Assembly: GCA_030648295.1 (NCBI GenBank)
Contig: JAUSID010000167.1
Coordinates: 1-64,000 of the forward strand
Direction of reading: 5' to 3'
DNA length: 64,000 nucleotides
Source: Opitutaceae bacterium
Lineage (GTDB): Bacteria > Verrucomicrobiota > Verrucomicrobiia > Opitutales > Opitutaceae
Every line of letters begins with the position of its first letter. The stretch's first letter is position 1. The notes beneath the pieces are model-generated. The model was given only the letters and a program-made list of their open reading frames with translations. It was not told the DNA's origin and did not search any database. Positions 21,659 to 49,060 of this stretch are shown one piece after another. Made by a program: the position numbers and the translations under genes.

Positions 21659-22435
21659 ATGACGTTTCGACCGCGTCTTAATAAAAATACACTCGTCTTC
21701 GGAGGAGTGGCGGCCTGGGGCCTGCTACTCATCTCCTGCGTGGCGGTAAATCGCACCATGCTCGCGCCGCCGTACATCGCCGGCGCGAACCTCGTGGGCA
21801 ACAAGGGGTGCGCCGAATGCCATTCCGAGGTCACCGACCATTTCAGCTCCTCCACGCACGCCAAGGTTGCCCTCGCCGAGGGCAACGTTGGCAGCACGGG
21901 CTGCGAGGCCTGTCACGGCGCGGGCAGCCTGCACGTGAAAGCCGGCGGCACCAGGAGCACAATTGTCAATCCGGGCAAGTCCCCGGAGGCGTGCTTCCAG
22001 TGCCACCTCGACAAGCGTGGTCAGTTCAATCTGCCCAATGCGCACGCCGTCGCCACCGGCCAGATGAGCTGCAGCGAGTGCCACGACCCGCACCGGGGCA
22101 ATGCCATCAAGGGCACGGGCGCTTCACTGCACACCCAGAATGAGTCGTGCACCGAGTGCCACACGGCGCAAAAGGGGCCGTTCATCTTCAAGCATAATGC
22201 CATGAAGGAAGGCTGCACCTCGTGCCACAACCCGCACGGTTCGGTGAACCAGAAGATGCTCAACGCGCCTGATTCGAATCTGTGCTTGCAGTGCCATGCC
22301 ACCGGTTCGAGCCCCGGCCAGCTCTTCGCGGGTGGACGCGACCACGCCGGCAATCCGGTCAACGGCTCCTGTTGGGCAGCCGGCTGCCACGAGGGAATCC
22401 ATGGCTCCAACGTCAGCCACGCGCTGCGCTACTAA
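21659..22435 (+). CDS. Multiheme c-type cytochrome (MtrA/DmsE-like, about 8 hemes), putative lipoprotein/periplasmic
   Basis: CAECH, CEACH, CFQCH, CSECH, CTECH, CTSCH, CLQCH plus CWAAGCH (CX4CH); N-terminal LLLISCVAV. Confidence 0.92.
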   Translation: MTFRPRLNKNTLVFGGVAAWGLLLISCVAVNRTMLAPPYIAGANLVGNKGCAECHSEVTDHFSSSTHAKVALAEGNVGSTGCEACHGAGSLHVKAGGTRSTIVNPGKSPEACFQCHLDKRGQFNLPNAHAVATGQMSCSECHDPHRGNAIKGTGASLHTQNESCTECHTAQKGPFIFKHNAMKEGCTSCHNPHGSVNQKMLNAPDSNLCLQCHATGSSPGQLFAGGRDHAGNPVNGSCWAAGCHEGIHGSNVSHALRY

Positions 22436-22453
22436 CCCGGCAACCGATCGACC

Positions 22454-24667
22454 ATGAAATCACTCAATTTTGTACTACGCACCGCCGGCCTGGCTTCCGG
22501 CATGGCGCTCCTGTCCATTCCCGTCGCAGCCGCGGAAGCAGATGCGTTCCCGGCGTTCGATACCAACTACATCACGTTCTCGGCCGGTGGCGCCGATATC
22601 GATGGCAGCAAGGCCGCCTACCAGGCCAGGACCCGCAATGCGAAGACCGGCGCGGCGGGCATCGAGGACATGCGCTTCGATTACGATCTGAAGGACAAGA
22701 CCACCCTGTCGGTCAACGGTCGAGCCCTCGCTGGCCAGGAAGACTACCTGCTCAGCTTCAAGCTGACCAAGGAGGAAGTCGGCTCGGTTGAGGTCGGGTA
22801 TAAGACGTTCCGCACGTTCTACGACGGCGCGGGCGGCTTCTTCCCGATCGGAAATGTGTGGATGCCCCTGTTCAGCCGTCCGCTTTATGTCGATCGTGGC
22901 CAGCTTTTCGTGCAGGGCACCATCGTCATGCCGAAAGCGCCGGTGATCTCGTTCAAATACACGCACAGCACCCGCGACGGCCGCAAGGATAGCACGATCT
23001 GGGGCGACACCAATCTGACCGGCATTCCGATCCTCGCTGGCCCAGGCGCCGTGAATCCGATCGCCGCCTCGCGCAAGCTGCTTCCCACCTACGTGGATCT
23101 CGATGAGACGAACGACGCGTGGGAGGTCAGCGTCCGTCACAAGGTGGGTAACACCTCGTTGGTCGTGTCGGTCGGTGGCAATTCCATCGAAAACCGAAAC
23201 GTCCGCGAGATGCAGCAGAACATCGGCGAACTCGCCCCGTTCCCCGCGCCCGTCTTCACGGCGCCGACGGTGAACAACGAACGCGCCGGCAGCCCGCGCC
23301 GCACGACCATGACGCAGCGCCATGAGGAGGACGGCTACCACGCGTCCGCGACATTCGAAACGGCGATGAACGACAAGGTCACCCTGTTTGGTGGCCTCCA
23401 GTATCACACGGCCGACGTCGAAATCGGGCTTTCGCGCAACTTCAGGGCAACCATCGCCTCGGCGACCGGCGTCCGTGAGTATGCCGGCGGCTTCGTCAAC
23501 ACCGGCGCCACCGCCCGTGCTCCCTATCACGTGGTGGCGCAGGGTGACCTGGAATTCGATGTGCTCACCGGCAATTTTGGCGCGCGGTTCACCCCGTCTC
23601 CGAACCTTGCCATCGAGACCGCCCTCCGCGGTGAGCGGTGGGAGGATTCCGGCCGCAACCTGGCCGACTACTCGTCGCAAGGCGTGACGCTCGCCACCGG
23701 CGCCGTCACCTCTTATGCCGCCCAGGGCCAGCACGGCGTGAACAACGTCGAGAAGCCGTGGACTCCCACGTTGGACGTCCGCTACACCGGCATCAAGAAC
23801 GTGGCGCTCTACGCGAGCTGGGAATATCGCACCGCCAAGCAGAACGAGCACGTGCGTTACGAGGGGCTGAACGGCCAGACCAAGCGCACCGAGCTTGATC
23901 TGATCGGCAAGAACATCGAGGAGACGCATTCCAACGCGAAGGTCGGATTTTCGTGGGCGATCAACCCGGCGTTGAACCTTCGGGCCGAGCTGTTCACCAA
24001 GGATCACGAGAACGACTTCGCCGGCTACGACGACGTCGTCGGTCGTGACTACGCGCTGAACTACGATATCTACGGAACGAAGCTCACCGCGGTGGTGAAA
24101 CCGACCAATGCAGTGAGCCTGACCTCCCGCTACGTGCTCCAACGCGGCAAGTCGGCAATCTTCCACAGCGGCCTGACCACAAACGGCGTCATCAACGGCA
24201 CGGTCGATGGCAACGACTCCACCCGCCACAACTTCTCCGAGGGCGTCACATGGAACGTCTCCAAGGCCGTCTACGTCCAGGCGAACGGCTCGGTGGTGTT
24301 CGACCAGATTCAGACGATGTATCCGTGGATCAGCGGCAATGCGAAGCGCAATTTGCGCAACTCCGACAACAACTATGTCACGGCCGATGCGGCGGTGGGC
24401 TTCAGCATCGACCGGAACACGTCCGGGCTGATCCAAGGCACCTATTACCGGGCCAATAATTACGATGCGTCGTATGCGGCCGTCGGCATGCCCCTCGGCG
24501 CCAGCGCACAGGAGACGACCGTTAGCGTCGGCGTCCGGCGCAAGCTGACCGAGAAGACGGTGCTCAGCGCCAAGCTGGGTTACGTTGACAGCAAGAACGC
24601 CACGCGCGGCGGGTATGCGGACTTCCGCGGACCACTCGCCTACGTGTCGGTGCAGCACGCGTTCTGA
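22454..24667 (+). CDS. MtrB/PioB-family outer-membrane beta-barrel (porin partner of multiheme cytochrome)
   Basis: Directly follows the cytochrome gene. Signal peptide; about 700-aa amphipathic beta-strand pattern (VTLFGGLQYHTADVEIG, LYASWEYRTAKQNEHV, VSVGVRRKLTEKTVLSAKLGYVDSKN...YVSVQHAF). Confidence 0.82.
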   Translation: MKSLNFVLRTAGLASGMALLSIPVAAAEADAFPAFDTNYITFSAGGADIDGSKAAYQARTRNAKTGAAGIEDMRFDYDLKDKTTLSVNGRALAGQEDYLLSFKLTKEEVGSVEVGYKTFRTFYDGAGGFFPIGNVWMPLFSRPLYVDRGQLFVQGTIVMPKAPVISFKYTHSTRDGRKDSTIWGDTNLTGIPILAGPGAVNPIAASRKLLPTYVDLDETNDAWEVSVRHKVGNTSLVVSVGGNSIENRNVREMQQNIGELAPFPAPVFTAPTVNNERAGSPRRTTMTQRHEEDGYHASATFETAMNDKVTLFGGLQYHTADVEIGLSRNFRATIASATGVREYAGGFVNTGATARAPYHVVAQGDLEFDVLTGNFGARFTPSPNLAIETALRGERWEDSGRNLADYSSQGVTLATGAVTSYAAQGQHGVNNVEKPWTPTLDVRYTGIKNVALYASWEYRTAKQNEHVRYEGLNGQTKRTELDLIGKNIEETHSNAKVGFSWAINPALNLRAELFTKDHENDFAGYDDVVGRDYALNYDIYGTKLTAVVKPTNAVSLTSRYVLQRGKSAIFHSGLTTNGVINGTVDGNDSTRHNFSEGVTWNVSKAVYVQANGSVVFDQIQTMYPWISGNAKRNLRNSDNNYVTADAAVGFSIDRNTSGLIQGTYYRANNYDASYAAVGMPLGASAQETTVSVGVRRKLTEKTVLSAKLGYVDSKNATRGGYADFRGPLAYVSVQHAF

Positions 24668-24692
24668 TTCGCGTTTGTTATCCCAAAATCAA

Positions 24693-24735
24693 GTCCGGCC
24701 GCGGTGCATGTGGGTGCGCCGCGGCCGGCATCTTT
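24693..24735 (+). terminator. Rho-independent-like terminator after the MtrB-like gene
   Basis: CCGGCCGCGG...CCGCGGCCGG followed by CATCTTTTC. Confidence 0.7.
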
Positions 24736-24850
24736 TCGGGCCTCGCGTTGAAAGCGAGGGGAGCGGCGGCGGGCTGTAGGAGCTTACTTGCGGGCAGCTG
24801 CGGCCGCGGGTGTCGTCTCGGGGGCTGTTCGTTTCTTCGCTCCGGCCGCA

Positions 24851-35968: not shown

Positions 35969-36054
35969 GGCGCGAAAGCGCGGCAAGTGTCAATTCGCGT
36001 GATTCGCGGGCGGTCTTCTGCATGCTCCCGCTGGTTATCCTGCCCCGATACTCC

Positions 36055-39000
36055 ATGAAAGTACTCTCAGCTGCCCTTGGCGTTACTATTTTCGGTGCTG
36101 CCGTTTTTGCCGCCGATATCCCGCCCACCCGCAACACGTACACGGCGGCGTATGGCGAAACCAAGAACCCCGTCACGATCGATCCGGCGAAAGACCTGCC
36201 GCACTACCCCGCCGTCGAGGTCAAGGACGCCGTCGCGACGTGGAAGGTGAAGCGCGGTTTCAAGGTCGAACTCGCCGCGCACGAACCGCAGGTGCGCGAT
36301 CCGATCGCCGTGAGCTTCGATGAAAACGGCCGGATGTTCGTGTGCGAAATGATCGACTACTCGGAGGAGCGTGAACACGACCCGCACTGGGGCCGCATCT
36401 CCGTGCTCGAGGACAAGGACGGCGACGGCCGCTACGAAACCAGCCGCGTATTCGCCGACAACCTCCCCTGGCCCACCGGCTTGATTTGGGCGAACGGCGG
36501 GCTTTTCGTCGGCGCCACGCCCGACATCTGGCGGTTCGAAGATCGTGATGGCGACGGCCGCGCCGAAGTGCGCGAGAAGGTTTTCACCGGATTCGGAACA
36601 GCGCTCGCACGACTGAACGTGCAGTCACTGATGAATAGTTTCCAGTGGGGCCCCGACAACCGCGTGCACGTTCAGACCGGCAACAGCTCGCGGGGAAAAA
36701 TCAAAGGACTCAAATCGCCGGCCGTGGGCGAGGTTGAACTCGCCGGCCGCAATTTCTGGTTTGATCCGACGACGTATGAGTTCGGATTCGAAGCCCCGGG
36801 CGGACAATACGGGATGAGCTTCGACGATTTCGGCCGGAAGTTCACCTGCTCGAACTCGGACCACCTCCAAATGTGGGTCTACGACGATCGCTACGCGCGG
36901 AATCCGTTTTTCAATCCGCCGCCCGCGAAGCAGAGCATCGCCGCTGATGGCGGCGCGGCGGAGGTGTTTCGAATCAGTCCGGATGAGCCGTGGCGGATCA
37001 TCCGCACGCGCTGGCGGATCGGCGGCGTGGTTCGCGGGCCGGTCGAGGGCGGCGGCCGCGTCAGCGGCTACTTCACGGGTGCGTCCGGCACGATGATTTT
37101 CCGGGGCGATGCCTATGGCGCCGACTTCGCGAACAACAGCTTCAGCGCCGACTCGGGGGGGCAGCTGGTGCACCGGAAGAAACTTTACCCCGATGGCGCG
37201 AGCATGATCGGCCGCCGGCCCGACGACGAGCAGGGCTACGAATTCGCCGCGAGCCGGGACACGTGGGTCCGGATCGTCAACTTCGCGAACGCGCCGGACG
37301 GCTGCCTGCACATCTGCGACATGTATCGCGAGATCATCGAGCACCCGTGGAGTCTGCCCGAGGAAATAAAGAAGTACCTGGATCTGAACAACGGCAACGA
37401 CCGCGGCCGGGTTTACCGGCTGGTGCCGGACAATCCCGCCTGGCGCCGGCGCAACCAGGTGCAGCTTGGCAAGGCCGGTATCGCCGAATTGGTGACAACG
37501 CTCGGTCATCCGAACGGCTGGCACCGCGATACGGCGTCGCGGCTGCTGTACGAACGAAAGGATCGGGCGGCGATTCCGCTGCTGGCGAAGCTGGGGCGCG
37601 AAAGCGGATCGCCGCTCGCGAAGCTGCATGCGCTCCGCGTGCTCGACGGGCTCGGCGCTCTCGACGAAGCGGCCGTAACCAGCGCGCTCGGTGACGCCGA
37701 CGCCCACGTGCGTGAGCGCGCCATTGCCATGGCGGAGAAACTGATTGAGCGCGGCACGCCGGCGAGCCGGTTCGCGGATCGATTCGCGGTGCTGGTGGAT
37801 GATCCCGACGATCGCGTGCGGATGCAGCTGGCGTTCACCCTCGAATCCGCTCTTGCCGGTGCGAAGGGTGGAGCGGCGCCGACCCCACTCACCACCGCCT
37901 ACACGCGTCTCGCCCAGCGGGACGCGACCAACAAATGGGTTTCGGCCGCGCTGCTGAGCGGACCACCCGAGATCGTCAACGGTATACTGTTTCCCGCGAT
38001 GACGCGCGACCTCGGACAGGCAAAAAAATCCGCCGCATTTGTCGCCAAACTGATTGAGATTCGGGCGGCATCGAAGCCCGCCGAGGGCTATGGTTCATTG
38101 ATCGATTTCGTGGCGCAGGCCGGGACGAGCCCCGCCTGGCTCCGCGCGCTCGGAGAGGGGCTGCGTCGCGCCGGCACCTCGATCGAGAAGGTCGACACGG
38201 GCAATAAGCTCGCCGCCGTTTTTGGCCGCGCGGCGGCAACCGCGGCCGACAGCAAAGCCGCGGCCCCAGCCCGGCTCGAGGCGATCGAACTCCTCGCCGT
38301 CGCGTCGCTGCCGAATTCACGCGAGGCGCTCGCCGCGGGCATGGCCAGCGGCCAGCCGGAAGCGGTGCAAACCGCGGCCATCAAGACGCTGGCGCAACAT
38401 CACTCGCCGGACGTCACCTCGACCCTGATTCGTTCGTGGCCGAATTTGTCCGGCAAGGCGAAAGACAGTGCACTCGCCGCATTGATTTCGCGCGAGGATC
38501 GCGCGACGGCGCTGCTCAAATCGATCGAGGCCGGGAGCATCAAGGCGGCGGATCTTCCGGCGATGGAGGTGCAGAGTCTCGTGCAGAACAAGAGCACGAA
38601 GGTGGCGGCGCTCGCGCGGACCGCGTTGGCCTCGGTCATCCCGCCGTCGCGCGAAGAAGTGGCGGCAAAATTCCAGCCGGCGGCCAGTTTGCCGGGGAAT
38701 GCGGCACGCGGCAAAACGCATTACACCGGTCGATGCAGCGTGTGTCACCGCGCGGCCGGCGAAGGCATGGAGTTCGGACCTGATCTGATCACGGTGAAAA
38801 CCAAAGGCCGCGATGCGTTGCTCACGGCGATCCTGAATCCGCACCAGGAGGTCGCGCCACAATTCATCGCCTTCGATGTGATGACCAAGGACGGCAACGC
38901 CTACACCGGCATGATTGAGAAGGATGACGCCACCAGCCTTTCCCTGAAAATCATGGGCGGAGCCCAGATCACGATCCCGCGCACGAACATCAAGGGCAGC

Positions 39001-39099
39001 ACCTCGTCCGGGAAGAGCATCATGCCCGAGGGCCTGGAAGCCGGCATGACCGTCCAGGAAATGGCGGACCTGCTGACGTTCATCGAGGAACTGAGGTAG
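36055..39099 (+). CDS. PVC-type membrane-bound dehydrogenase with HEAT-like repeats and C-terminal c-type cytochrome domain
   Basis: FKVELAAHEPQVRDPIAVSFDENGRMFVCEMIDYSEER, ISVLEDKDGDGRYE, C-terminal GKTHYTGRCSVCHRAAGEGMEFGPDL. Confidence 0.92.
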   Translation: MKVLSAALGVTIFGAAVFAADIPPTRNTYTAAYGETKNPVTIDPAKDLPHYPAVEVKDAVATWKVKRGFKVELAAHEPQVRDPIAVSFDENGRMFVCEMIDYSEEREHDPHWGRISVLEDKDGDGRYETSRVFADNLPWPTGLIWANGGLFVGATPDIWRFEDRDGDGRAEVREKVFTGFGTALARLNVQSLMNSFQWGPDNRVHVQTGNSSRGKIKGLKSPAVGEVELAGRNFWFDPTTYEFGFEAPGGQYGMSFDDFGRKFTCSNSDHLQMWVYDDRYARNPFFNPPPAKQSIAADGGAAEVFRISPDEPWRIIRTRWRIGGVVRGPVEGGGRVSGYFTGASGTMIFRGDAYGADFANNSFSADSGGQLVHRKKLYPDGASMIGRRPDDEQGYEFAASRDTWVRIVNFANAPDGCLHICDMYREIIEHPWSLPEEIKKYLDLNNGNDRGRVYRLVPDNPAWRRRNQVQLGKAGIAELVTTLGHPNGWHRDTASRLLYERKDRAAIPLLAKLGRESGSPLAKLHALRVLDGLGALDEAAVTSALGDADAHVRERAIAMAEKLIERGTPASRFADRFAVLVDDPDDRVRMQLAFTLESALAGAKGGAAPTPLTTAYTRLAQRDATNKWVSAALLSGPPEIVNGILFPAMTRDLGQAKKSAAFVAKLIEIRAASKPAEGYGSLIDFVAQAGTSPAWLRALGEGLRRAGTSIEKVDTGNKLAAVFGRAAATAADSKAAAPARLEAIELLAVASLPNSREALAAGMASGQPEAVQTAAIKTLAQHHSPDVTSTLIRSWPNLSGKAKDSALAALISREDRATALLKSIEAGSIKAADLPAMEVQSLVQNKSTKVAALARTALASVIPPSREEVAAKFQPAASLPGNAARGKTHYTGRCSVCHRAAGEGMEFGPDLITVKTKGRDALLTAILNPHQEVAPQFIAFDVMTKDGNAYTGMIEKDDATSLSLKIMGGAQITIPRTNIKGSTSSGKSIMPEGLEAGMTVQEMADLLTFIEELR

Positions 39100-43795: not shown

Positions 43796-43978
43796 GAGTT
43801 TTGGGTTTTGAGTTTTGGGTTCTGGGTTCTGGGTTCTGGGTTTGGCGTTCTTCTGACCTCTGGCCTCTGACCTCTGTCCTCTGGCCTCTGGCTTCTGGCT
43901 TCTGGCTTCTGTCCCTCCGACCCTCCGCGCCTCCGACCCTCCGTCCCCCCGTCCCTCCGCCCCTCAGCCCCTCCGCTA
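43796..43978. repeat. Composite heptamer ((TTCTGGG)/(CTCTGGC)) then octamer (CCGNCCCT) tandem array
   Basis: GGGTTCTGGGTTCTGGGTTCTGGG...CCTCTGGCCTCTGGCTTCTGGCTTCTGG...CCCTCCGACCCTCCGCGCCTCCGACCCTCCG. Confidence 0.88.
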
Positions 43979-46900
43979 CTTCCCGCCCGCCCATTTCACC
44001 GCGTTCGCGAGGAGTGTCTTGTACGCATCCATATCGTGGACACGCTGGTCGTGGCCGATCGTGATGCCGACGATCCGCGCCTTCTCGTGCCCGGTGATCC
44101 ACACCGCGGGGTGCGGCTGCTTGAACCTCAGGCTCGGCGACGTCTCGGCCAGCACCGTGATTGGCGACGTGCCGGGCGGAATCTTGTCCGGCTCCGCGTT
44201 GATATAGTACAGCTCATCCTCGACCTCGAAGCTCGCCGGCACGCCTTTGAGAATCGGATGCTCCGGCCTTAGGGCGTTCACGGTATAGCTTGCGATCTTG
44301 TCGTGTCCGCGCGCTCCACCGCCGACGATCTTCGCGTTAAGCTCGGGCCATTGCGGAAAACCGTACCACGTGCCGGGGTGCAGCATGATGATTCCCTTCC
44401 CCGCCGCTGCGAAATCGAAAACCGCTCTCCGATACTGCGGTGTGTCGAAGAATTTTCGGTTCACGCTTATGACCGCCACATCGGCCTCGCGCAGCGCGGT
44501 CGCCGCCTGATCCCGATCTTCCGTATAATTCACGCTGAAGCCGGCCGCCTTCAGCGTCGCGGTGTCGGTCTCCCCGAAGAACTTCGCGAAATTGTGCGAA
44601 CTGCCGCCGGTGACAATCAGCACCTTCGTCTTGCCCGACTCCCACCGGATGGCCGTGGGATCCGGCAATGGAGCGTCACCGCGCCCGCCCTCCTTCGGAC
44701 CCTCCGCTGCGGCGGATTGCGCAGCCGCCGCGGTCGCCGCGCCCGGACTCGCAGAGGCAGAGCGGGAAGCCTGCGCCATGACCGCTCGCTCGCCCACGCC
44801 CACAACTGAATTGGCGGCCCGCAGCCCGGCTCGGGTCGGCTCGCTGGCGATCGCTGCTACCGCGGCGGAAGCGGGCTCCGCGCCCGCCGTGATCGCGACG
44901 GTGCACGGCACGATGTCGTTGTCGAAGCTCTCCAGCGCGACTTTCGCCAGCGCGCCACGCCTCCCGAGGTTCAGCGCAAAATAGCGAAGCTGCCCGCGCT
45001 TGGTGAAATCGCCCGCGTCCACGCTCTGCGGCACGTTGGCCCGGCCAATGTAGTCCGCGAAATGTTCGCCGTTCTTCAGCACGTGCTCCTCGGTGGTTCC
45101 ATCCGCGAACGTCACGATGACTTTCAGCGCCGGCCGGCCGCGCCCGGCATCACCGCCATACGGCCACGCCCATCCGCCCACCCCGCCGAGGAAATGCAGG
45201 CTTGCCGTCGTCATGCGCGTGTTGATCTCGACGTGTCGCGGAAACTGTTCCGAAACATTGTTCCGGCCGGGTCCGCCCTTCAGCGCGATGAAATTCATTC
45301 CGTTCGGCGCCTTCGCCGGATCCATGACGAAGAAGGGAACGCCCGCGACCGTCACGTTGCCGAACTTGTGCAACGTGATGGTCTCGTCGCGCTCGTCCTC
45401 GCGCCGAAACGCACCGCGCCGGCTGTCCGCCGTGTAGGCATCGCGCAAATCCAGCACGCGGAATTTCTGGTCCGCGCCGCACATGAATGCGAGCAGGTCG
45501 CGCAAGCCTTCGGATCCGAGACCCTCGAGCCCCTCCGGCATCAGCGATCGCCGCGTGTTTTCGCGCGACGCGATGTCATCCTTCCGGATTTCGATCTCCC
45601 CGCCGGCATGGCGCAACGTCATCGACGCGGCGTTCTCGCTCGCGACGATGCCGCTGTGAATTTCGCCCTTCTTCGTCGTGACGTTCCACTGGAAGAAGCT
45701 CGCGTCGACCTCGCGGTTGGGATCGACGATGTGAACCAGAAGTTCGCTCGGCCCGTGCGCGCCCATGCCGTGCAACGGTGGCCCGACGTCGCTCAAACCG
45801 AGATCGCCAAATTTGTGGCAGGCCGAACAGGCCGCCGTGAATAGCGTCCGGCCCTTCGCCGGGTCACCGGGTTTTTCAACTTCGGCCGTCAGCCGCGCGA
45901 TCAGTTCGTTCTTTTGTTTCGTCTGCGGATTCAGCGTTTCGAGCAACGCGGCCGCCTGCCTCGCCACCTGCCGGCTCGGATGCGTGCGCAGACGCGACAG
46001 GTTTGCCGGTCCAAGCTTCGCCGGATTCACCCGCCCATCCTTGATCGCGACGAGGAGCGCAAGAGCAGATTCCGCGCGTTTGACGAGCTGATCGAGTGCC
46101 ACGGCCGAATTCGTCCGCGCCAGGACATCGACGAGCACCGCGGCGACGTCCGGCCCGGCATCATCGCCCAGCGCAGTGATCAGCCGGCCCGAGAGTCCCT
46201 CGGTTGTGCCTGGCGCTGCCAGGATCGTCGCAATGCCTTTCAGCGTTTCGACGCGCAGCGAAGAAATTCCGAGCAGGCTCATTGCGATCTCGGCGCGACG
46301 CTCATCGGAAATTCGCGAATCTGAAACCTCGCGCAGCAGCTCGCGCCCGCGACGGTTCGCCCGCCCGGCCAGGGCGCCAGACTTGTCCCACTGGCCTATA
46401 AGCGGCAGCACCGCGGCCGCTGTGCGCGGCTCCTGGAGCAACCGCTCGAGCGCGGCGGCCAGCGCATTGTCCACCGCCGGTGCGCTACCGCCGCCCTGTC
46501 CCAATCCGCGCAGGATCGTAATCTTCAACTCCGCCGCCGTCACAGGTGCGGCAGCGCACGCCCGCACGAGTTGCGCTGCGTCCGTCGCCGCGTTACCGGA
46601 AAACAGCGCGGTGGCGAATGGCGCCAGCGACGCACTCTTCTCGTGCACCAGCGCATCGGTCAGAAACTCCGTCGCGTGCCCGCTTGCTGCCGCCACCACG
46701 GCGGACTTGGTCCACGCATCGTCGGCTTCGGCAAACCGGGTCAACCACTGCCGTCGGTCGTCGGTTCTGGCGGCATGGCTGGCCTGCTCGAAAACCTGGA
46801 GCGCCTTGCTGCCCATCGGCCGCTTCAGCTGCACGACGCGCGGATTCGAAGCATGATTTTCCTGCGCCAGCCGCCATGCGGTCTGCTTCACCTGCGCGTT

Positions 46901-49060
46901 CGGACTCGTTTCGATCGCGCGGATCAATCCCGCGATGTCGGTTCGATGAAGCACCGGCACTTCGAGCTTCTTCGCGTCCTTGTGCTGCACTTTCCAAATC
47001 CGGCTGAAAAAGTGATCGCGATCCGGCCGGATGGCGGCGTTCGCCGGTCCATGCTGCGGTCCGCGCGTGTCGTTGTGAATCACGGCCTGGTTGTAGAAAT
47101 CGATCACGTAGAGCGCACCATCGGGTCCGACACGCGTTTCGATCGGACGGAACCACAGGTCGCGGCTGCGAATGAACTCGGTCTGCTCGCGGCCTTTTTC
47201 CTTTTCGGTCGTGTAGGTGACTCCCGCGGGTCGGACGAACTGGTGATGCACGAGGTTGATCGTGGGTTCGCCCGTAAAATAGCTGTACCGCCATTTCTCG
47301 GGCCAGGCGCCGCCATCATACACCGCGCAGCCCGACGCAGCCGTGAACTGGCCGACCTGATCGATCTGCACGTACGCCTGCTCCGTCCACGTCATCAGCG
47401 GATATGATTTCTCCCGCGTGATCATTCCATTCGCCGACGTCGTGCCCGCGATTTTCCCCTTCGCCAGCACGTACTCCGGCAGCACGGTGTGGAAGAACAC
47501 GGTTCCGCTCGTCGGCTGCGTCCAGAAAACCTGCCCGTCCCAGGTGATATCCAAACCCCAGGTGTTGCCATTCCGGCTGCTGTATTGCTCGAAGGCACTG
47601 CCATCCGGCTTGAATCGCACCACGCCGCTGCCGTCCGGCCCGAACGTTTTTGTCCCGTCGGCCGAGGTCACATTGCCGCGGCTGTAGCCGTGCGTCGCAT
47701 AAATCCACCCGTCGAGACCCCACCGCAGGTTGTTGATCACCGCGTGCGTGTCCGTCGTGCCGAGACCGGTGTAGAGCTTCGTGCGCTGGTCGGCGACCTG
47801 ATCGCCATTCGTGTCCTCGAGGAACCAGATGTCAGGCGCGCTGCACGCGACGACGCCATTGCGGTGGAAGACGAATCCGGTGACGAGTTCGAGCTTGTCC
47901 GCGAAAACATGTTTTCGGTCCATCACCCCGTCACCGTTCGTGTCACTGAGAATGGAAATTCGATCCTCGGGTTCACGGTCATGCCGTTGCGGATACAGCG
48001 AACCGCTGTCCTTCCACGGCGCCGTGTTGGGAACCCGCCGGCCGTTGGGATACTCTGGTGTTTCCGCCACCCACAACCGGCCTTTTTCATCCCAATCCAT
48101 CGCGATGGCCTTGTGGATCAGCGGCTCGGCTGCAACGAGCGAGAGATTGAACTCGGGATGCACCTCGATCTTCGCGGCGGCGAGATCGGGGCGCGTCGGA
48201 CCGCCCTCGACATAGCGGAGATTGTCGCCCAGCTCATCGGGCCGGCAAAGCACGTCCACGTTCGCGTGCCGGCCGGCCCAGGCGATGCCGCGGAGCAGAA
48301 TCGCGCGGTAGTTCGGCCGGTTGAAATTTTCGTAGAGGTGACCGGGGATCGAGACAAACGCGCGGTACGGTGATGTCGCGCCCTCAATCGTACGCTCGTA
48401 CATCCACATCTGCGGCTGAATATCATAGATGCTGACCTTCTTGCCGCCACCGGTCAGCTCGTCGGCGCGCTTCTGGGATGCGTCGTTGCGCGCGCCGGCG
48501 GCTTTCGGCGTATACGCCGTGGCGAGAACGCGCGCCTGCGGCAGCAAATCCAGGTCGTAATAAATCTCGTCGTTCATCGCCCAGTTTGAGCAGTCCTTCG
48601 TGATCGGGCTGTCCCGGTCGGCGAAATACAGGTGCATCGGCCCTTCCAGCCACTTGGTCGTCCCCTGGCGCCAAGTGCCGCCGACGATGCCCTTGAACCA
48701 CTCCGGATTGCGCGAGACGACGCCGGCGTGAATCGCGACCAATCCGCCGCCGCGTTTGAGAAACTCATCGAGGTTCCGGCGATCCTCGGCCGCGGAAATG
48801 TTGCCGGCCTCCTGCGCGTGCAGGATCAAAACATCCGTTTGCTCCAACTGCGCCCGGGTGGGAAACGCGTCCGCGCCAGTGGCGCGCGCGCCGCGATCGT
48901 TCAGCATCGGCACCCACTCGCGCAGGAAACGAGGATAATCGTGTGCTCCCGGCCCGTGCGATTTGGGACCGGAGCGAATGAACACACGCAATGGTGCATC
49001 CGCCGCCGCGACGAGAAGGGGAGCGGCAAAAAACAATGCGATCAGCAGAAACCGTTTCAT
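43976..49060 (-). CDS. 1694-aa multidomain protein: ThuA-like / PVC-type dehydrogenase / HEAT / c-type cytochrome / beta-sandwich / second ThuA-like
   Basis: N-term SGPKSHGPGAHDYPRFLREW...LILHAQEAGN...GGGLVAIHAGV; dehydrogenase IAMDWDEKGRLWVAETPEYP...RISILSDTNGDGVMD; CSACH; C-term KVLIVTGGSSHNFAKFF...GKGIIMLHPGTWYG. Confidence 0.9.
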   Translation of the reverse strand: MKRFLLIALFFAAPLLVAAADAPLRVFIRSGPKSHGPGAHDYPRFLREWVPMLNDRGARATGADAFPTRAQLEQTDVLILHAQEAGNISAAEDRRNLDEFLKRGGGLVAIHAGVVSRNPEWFKGIVGGTWRQGTTKWLEGPMHLYFADRDSPITKDCSNWAMNDEIYYDLDLLPQARVLATAYTPKAAGARNDASQKRADELTGGGKKVSIYDIQPQMWMYERTIEGATSPYRAFVSIPGHLYENFNRPNYRAILLRGIAWAGRHANVDVLCRPDELGDNLRYVEGGPTRPDLAAAKIEVHPEFNLSLVAAEPLIHKAIAMDWDEKGRLWVAETPEYPNGRRVPNTAPWKDSGSLYPQRHDREPEDRISILSDTNGDGVMDRKHVFADKLELVTGFVFHRNGVVACSAPDIWFLEDTNGDQVADQRTKLYTGLGTTDTHAVINNLRWGLDGWIYATHGYSRGNVTSADGTKTFGPDGSGVVRFKPDGSAFEQYSSRNGNTWGLDITWDGQVFWTQPTSGTVFFHTVLPEYVLAKGKIAGTTSANGMITREKSYPLMTWTEQAYVQIDQVGQFTAASGCAVYDGGAWPEKWRYSYFTGEPTINLVHHQFVRPAGVTYTTEKEKGREQTEFIRSRDLWFRPIETRVGPDGALYVIDFYNQAVIHNDTRGPQHGPANAAIRPDRDHFFSRIWKVQHKDAKKLEVPVLHRTDIAGLIRAIETSPNAQVKQTAWRLAQENHASNPRVVQLKRPMGSKALQVFEQASHAARTDDRRQWLTRFAEADDAWTKSAVVAAASGHATEFLTDALVHEKSASLAPFATALFSGNAATDAAQLVRACAAAPVTAAELKITILRGLGQGGGSAPAVDNALAAALERLLQEPRTAAAVLPLIGQWDKSGALAGRANRRGRELLREVSDSRISDERRAEIAMSLLGISSLRVETLKGIATILAAPGTTEGLSGRLITALGDDAGPDVAAVLVDVLARTNSAVALDQLVKRAESALALLVAIKDGRVNPAKLGPANLSRLRTHPSRQVARQAAALLETLNPQTKQKNELIARLTAEVEKPGDPAKGRTLFTAACSACHKFGDLGLSDVGPPLHGMGAHGPSELLVHIVDPNREVDASFFQWNVTTKKGEIHSGIVASENAASMTLRHAGGEIEIRKDDIASRENTRRSLMPEGLEGLGSEGLRDLLAFMCGADQKFRVLDLRDAYTADSRRGAFRREDERDETITLHKFGNVTVAGVPFFVMDPAKAPNGMNFIALKGGPGRNNVSEQFPRHVEINTRMTTASLHFLGGVGGWAWPYGGDAGRGRPALKVIVTFADGTTEEHVLKNGEHFADYIGRANVPQSVDAGDFTKRGQLRYFALNLGRRGALAKVALESFDNDIVPCTVAITAGAEPASAAVAAIASEPTRAGLRAANSVVGVGERAVMAQASRSASASPGAATAAAAQSAAAEGPKEGGRGDAPLPDPTAIRWESGKTKVLIVTGGSSHNFAKFFGETDTATLKAAGFSVNYTEDRDQAATALREADVAVISVNRKFFDTPQYRRAVFDFAAAGKGIIMLHPGTWYGFPQWPELNAKIVGGGARGHDKIASYTVNALRPEHPILKGVPASFEVEDELYYINAEPDKIPPGTSPITVLAETSPSLRFKQPHPAVWITGHEKARIVGITIGHDQRVHDMDAYKTLLANAVKWAGGK

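Follow-up and report, generated by a model that had tools for sequence, protein, structure and literature searches.

The 64,000-nt stretch of Opitutaceae DNA analysed here (the window) carries, on its forward strand, a closely spaced gene pair that the initial annotation had read as an MtrAB/PioAB-like electron conduit. The features of this locus are as follows:

21659..22435, + strand: octaheme c-type cytochrome gene; 258 aa, seven CxxCH and a terminal CX4CH, predicted lipoprotein, MtrA/DmsE-related
22436..22453, + strand: intergenic gap of 18 bp; operon-like spacing, similarly close in 54/54 relatives
22454..24667, + strand: outer-membrane beta-barrel gene; 737 aa, signal peptide, ~26 predicted strands, apparent remote MtrB relative
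24695..24738, + strand: intrinsic terminator; G+C-rich 15-pair stem, 4-nt loop, T-rich tail

The cytochrome stop codon ends at 22435 and the barrel ATG lies at 22454, so that the initial description of an octaheme gene, an 18-bp gap and a 737-aa barrel agreed with our coordinates and motif counts. The terminator that had been placed after the barrel was likewise recovered, as a strong stem-loop at 24695-24728 (15 pairs, loop of 4) followed by CATCTTTTCG. A scan of all frames of the window found no further reading frame with two or more CxxCH motifs, and hence no MtrC/OmcA-like gene, as the initial annotation had also stated. The upstream neighbour of the pair is a URO-D-like gene on the opposite strand. 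The downstream neighbours, encoding an FtsX/MacB permease, an ABC ATPase and a GDSL lipase, are convergent with the pair; together they resemble what we take to be a tesA-ybbAP-type cluster and look separate from the putative conduit system. Elsewhere in the window, two large DUF7133 proteins are encoded at 36022-39099 (+) and 43976-49060 (-), one of them with a C-terminal cytochrome c domain and the other with a ThuA domain.

The cytochrome contains eight heme sites, consisting of seven CxxCH motifs and one CX4CH motif (CWAAGCH), and covalent heme binding to CX3-4CH motifs has been reported (PMC4245776). Its top-scoring NCBIfam model was NF041028 (GSU2203; 4.9e-46, 157 bits, below the cut-off), and the decaheme DmsE/MtrA model TIGR03508 matched at 3.8e-44 and 151.1 bits, below the curated cut-off of 192.2 bits. 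MtrA itself (PDB 6r2q_A, a chain that carries an odd molecule name) matched at E=5.9e-34. The eight sites fall short of the ten hemes of DmsE/MtrA, and in the alignment with the decaheme MtrA proteins of relatives the octaheme corresponded to MtrA minus one heme pair (~57 residues), the identity of the missing pair being uncertain because heme units are repeats. The lipobox of the window protein is WGLLLISC (LISC, Cys27), and this Cys was invariant across 55 distinct octahemes together with eight distal (non-motif) His residues. The heme Cys residues had served as selection criteria for these 55 sequences and thus provide no independent evidence, in contrast to the distal His residues and the lipobox. 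The presence of eight distal His for eight hemes throughout the set points to bis-His ligation, and the protein is most likely an all-bis-His lipoprotein wire, as judged from these conserved residues. The C-terminal heme of MtrA faces outward, which would make the CX4CH heme the outer one in the octaheme. An AlphaFold model of the cytochrome computed without hemes was useless (pLDDT 35).

The arrangement of the two genes was retained among relatives. Of the distinct full-length barrels whose contigs extend far enough upstream, 54/54 had an octaheme gene directly upstream (three other full-length barrels near contig edges are outside this count), indicating that the arrangement is not due to chance, and the upstream octahemes shared the layout of seven CxxCH and one CX4CH. 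Distance matrices of the cytochromes and the barrels correlated at r=0.84, with permutations reaching at most 0.13; the observed correlation is inflated by shared ancestry. Both trees showed the same split into a long-barrel subfamily (~730 aa), which includes the window protein, and a short one (~675 aa). The family was present in 24/390 sampled genomes of the phylum, mostly within Opitutaceae. One contig (G023:C36, L055) carries three octaheme-barrel pairs in tandem, and a stretch of ~10 kb on another (G008:C10, L060) holds both a canonical decaheme MtrAB and an octaheme-barrel pair. The pair is also encoded, at 77% barrel identity, on a 3.4-kb contig assigned to a Dechloromonas MAG (WBUO01000396.1, L035); this contig probably stems from an Opitutaceae genome and was misbinned.

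The window barrel has a signal-peptide-like start, contains no Cys and ends in VQHAF with an OMP-like Phe. It gave no Pfam, NCBIfam or PDB sequence match, including no match to PF11854 at E<=1 (Pfam cut-off, 23 bits) and none to NF041027, and a 35-member barrel profile found nothing in the PDB. A canonical MtrB of the same bacterial family matched 6r2q_B at 1.2e-21 in the PDB search. Comparison of the barrel-family profile with the canonical-MtrB profile by hhalign yielded E=5.9e-5 (for one comparison), a probability of 65% and a score of 49.8, versus 23-25 for the reversed-alignment controls; with the N-terminal part of the barrel alone the match was weak (E 0.02), and short motifs appeared alike by eye. 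One barrel-family member exceeded the PF11854 cut-off, with 39.6 bits, and four barrel relatives weakly matched NF041027 (best 1.6e-6), the model of GSU2204, which has been described as an MtrB/PioB-family protein (PMC13188914). The AlphaFold model of the window barrel, of low confidence (pLDDT 60.6, pTM 0.53), showed 26 strands, and in the Foldseek search with this model 6r2q_B had the highest TM-score (0.53/0.59) among the 50 listed matches. By E-value it was second in that list, behind a TonB receptor, and TonB receptors matched with strong E-values. Taken alone, the modelled fold match would be weak evidence for kinship to MtrB, since any large barrel would score. The CxxC motif of Shewanella MtrB was absent from the whole barrel family and from the local canonical MtrBs as well, and therefore does not discriminate between them. 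The data support the view that the window barrel looks like a remote MtrB relative in both homology and fold. Its initial designation as an MtrB/PioB-type barrel failed on direct sequence, by the very rule that the initial annotation had set for its refutation, as there was no profile match to PF11854 or an NCBIfam model; a remote relationship to MtrB is nonetheless supported by the hhalign comparison, the PF11854-passing relative and the TM-score.

A ~500-aa NapC/NirT-domain protein with six CxxCH and one CX3CH adjoins the pair in many relatives. The example at L059:3750-5264 has 504 aa, the same motif set and a PF03264 match; its membrane segments were read by eye, and its assignment as ImcH-type follows the published description rather than sequence. 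According to that description, ImcH proteins have 495-519 aa, three N-terminal membrane segments, a CX3CH followed by six CxxCH, and a NapC-like part; quinol oxidation is the only role so far connected with them, Fe(III) reducers are the only organisms in which they are known, and none had been seen beside mtrAB/mtoAB (PMC6295460). Strong matches to the ImcH-type gene occurred in 18/27 barrel-positive compared to 0/30 barrel-negative genomes (Fisher 1.5e-8, with phylogeny ignored), one genome with both the pair and the gene being G029; no full ImcH-type gene was detected in 9/27 barrel-positive genomes, and no ImcH-type gene adjoins the pair of the window. CbcL-type multiheme-cytochrome b561 fusions also occur in relatives, and such proteins have been implicated in both electron directions (PMC6295460). 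The linkage to ImcH-type genes favours outward electron flow.

The window belongs to a 9.1-Mb draft genome with 4% estimated contamination. This genome contains three further octaheme-barrel pairs, two of them in tandem at G000:C49 (L053), which are not strain variants of the window pair, as their barrels are only ~24-28% identical to the window barrel. Another contig carries a canonical decaheme MtrAB (G000:C95:24763-28232, L054) that is over both family cut-offs; a strong, near full-length PF11854 match was found in 16/142 genomes searched, this one included. The genome also has two CbcL-type genes, tetrahemes, and an ImcH-type gene split over the contig ends of G000:C54 and C211 (L125, L104), where the overlap differs at a few residues, which suggests a strain mixture or two copies. 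Quinol oxidases, which the initial annotation had proposed to seek as CymA/NapC-like proteins, are accordingly present as the ImcH and CbcL types and not as the CymA type. The search for extracellular multiheme proteins that it had also proposed came out negative for OmcA/MtrC-like proteins in a genome census of closely spaced CxxCH pairs, which could miss motifs of wide spacing or unusual form; the OmcA/MtrC search gave just two sub-threshold matches, an ActA-like pentaheme and a tetraheme. The same census returned a membrane-anchored ORF with ~7 CxxCH at G000:C92:161541-162008 (L158).

Our literature search on extracellular electron transfer in Opitutaceae yielded only one directly relevant study, that of He et al. 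2017, who described for Verrucomicrobia, with Opitutus terrae among the homologues, an 8-heme cytochrome next to a porin with 20 or more strands (PMC5615132; also PMC6344600) and proposed this verrucomicrobial porin-MHC as a novel extracellular-electron-transfer conduit (PMC5615132). The window pair fits the same description in its eight heme sites, its porin modelled with more than 20 strands and its phylum, and on the strength of that description would be a new member of this class, now tied to MtrAB. He et al. called the cytochrome periplasmic and without Shewanella homology, whereas the window cytochrome carries a lipoprotein signal and is clearly homologous to MtrA; and unlike their MAGs, from which Shewanella/Geobacter-homologous systems were reported absent (PMC5615132), the genome of the window carries a canonical MtrAB. 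The present analysis adds to their account the lipoprotein signal, the eight conserved distal ligands, the MtrA link, the remote MtrB link and the ImcH linkage.

With MtrAB, PioAB and MtoAB (TIGR03508 and PF11854; PDB 6R2Q) the window pair shares the cytochrome-then-barrel order, an MtrA-homologous, probably bis-His wire and, in the low-confidence model, ~26 strands, and PioAB and MtoAB are likewise without an outer cytochrome; it differs from all three in having 8 rather than 10 hemes, a terminal CX4CH, a predicted lipid anchor and a barrel below family detection. With Geobacter GSU2203-GSU2204 (NF041028/NF041027) it shares the best NCBIfam cytochrome score and the weak match in four barrel relatives, but GSU2203 is a decaheme, the window cytochrome is below the cut-off and the window barrel has no NF041027 match. 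Geobacter Pcc (OmbB-OmaB-OmcB) resembles it by description, as an octaheme cytochrome with a porin, and differs by its outer 12-heme cytochrome (PMC4245776).

Taken together, these observations lead us to read the pair, with a probability of roughly 0.78, as a two-subunit outer-membrane electron conduit with outward flow, a reading in which the complex, heme insertion, lipidation, topology, direction and acceptor are all predicted. The MtrAB/PioAB-like conduit of the initial annotation is therefore well supported as a porin-cytochrome conduit, and not as a formal family member: the cytochrome scores 151 bits where the DmsE/MtrA model requires 192, and the barrel lacks a PF11854 match. It may thus be likened to MtrAB in its working, yet lies outside the membership cut-offs of both MtrA/DmsE and MtrB/PioB. 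We know of no laboratory test of a verrucomicrobial octaheme-porin conduit of this kind. In the proposed mechanism, the cytochrome would be exported, loaded with eight bis-His hemes and held by its N-terminal lipid, probably on the periplasmic side of the outer membrane. The barrel of ~26 strands would enclose and insulate the C-terminal hemes of the cytochrome in the way that MtrB encloses MtrA, and the CX4CH heme would form the outer end of the wire. Inner-membrane quinol oxidases of the ImcH and CbcL types would feed the cytochrome, perhaps via periplasmic tetrahemes. Because no MtrC/OmcA was detected, either the terminal heme itself or an unrecognised partner would reduce the outside acceptor, for example humic quinones or Fe(III).

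Outward flow has to be weighed against electron uptake, in which a PioAB/MtoAB-like conduit would draw electrons from external donors such as Fe(II). Uptake would suit the failure to detect an MtrC/OmcA-like outer cytochrome, as in PioAB/MtoAB, and the CbcL-type proteins of this genome, a type implicated in both directions (PMC6295460); the link of the pair in relatives to ImcH-type genes, known only from Fe(III) reducers (PMC6295460), argues against it, and we consider it unlikely.

Two further explanations dispense with a general conduit. The barrel could be an ordinary transporter, such as a TonB-type receptor or a solute porin, with the cytochrome storing electrons in the periplasm independently of it. 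The strong E-values of TonB receptors in the Foldseek list and the missing direct MtrB family match would be in keeping with this, but the Pfam search matched neither a TonB plug nor a TonB receptor domain in the window barrel, all 54 barrels are paired with an octaheme, one barrel-family member passes PF11854 and the cytochrome is homologous to MtrA, which together make such a transporter highly improbable. Still less credible, in our view, is a DmsEF-like conduit that serves a particular outside enzyme, for example a molybdenum reductase, instead of general transfer: the cytochrome does match the DmsE model, but within the window the genes flanking the pair include no recognisable reductase, and the neighbourhoods in relatives, although not exhaustively annotated, show cytochromes.

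The preferred reading of an outward conduit can be taken further, to a possibility that we hold only tentatively and regard as rather doubtful. The octaheme-barrel pairs might constitute a self-sufficient, lipid-anchored class of conduit, in which an MtrA minus one heme pair is fed by ImcH and an exposed CX4CH heme acts as the terminal reductase, so that no outer cytochrome is needed; Opitutaceae might run several divergent copies beside a canonical MtrAB for different acceptors.

The predicted verrucomicrobial porin-cytochrome class is now linked to MtrAB by homology and to quinol oxidases of the ImcH and CbcL types by gene linkage, which gives a concrete, testable exit route for electrons from Opitutaceae cells. 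If the outward conduit is real, bacteria from a phylum known mainly for polysaccharide degradation could use humics or iron for respiration, with a bearing on carbon turnover in waterlogged soils and bog lakes.
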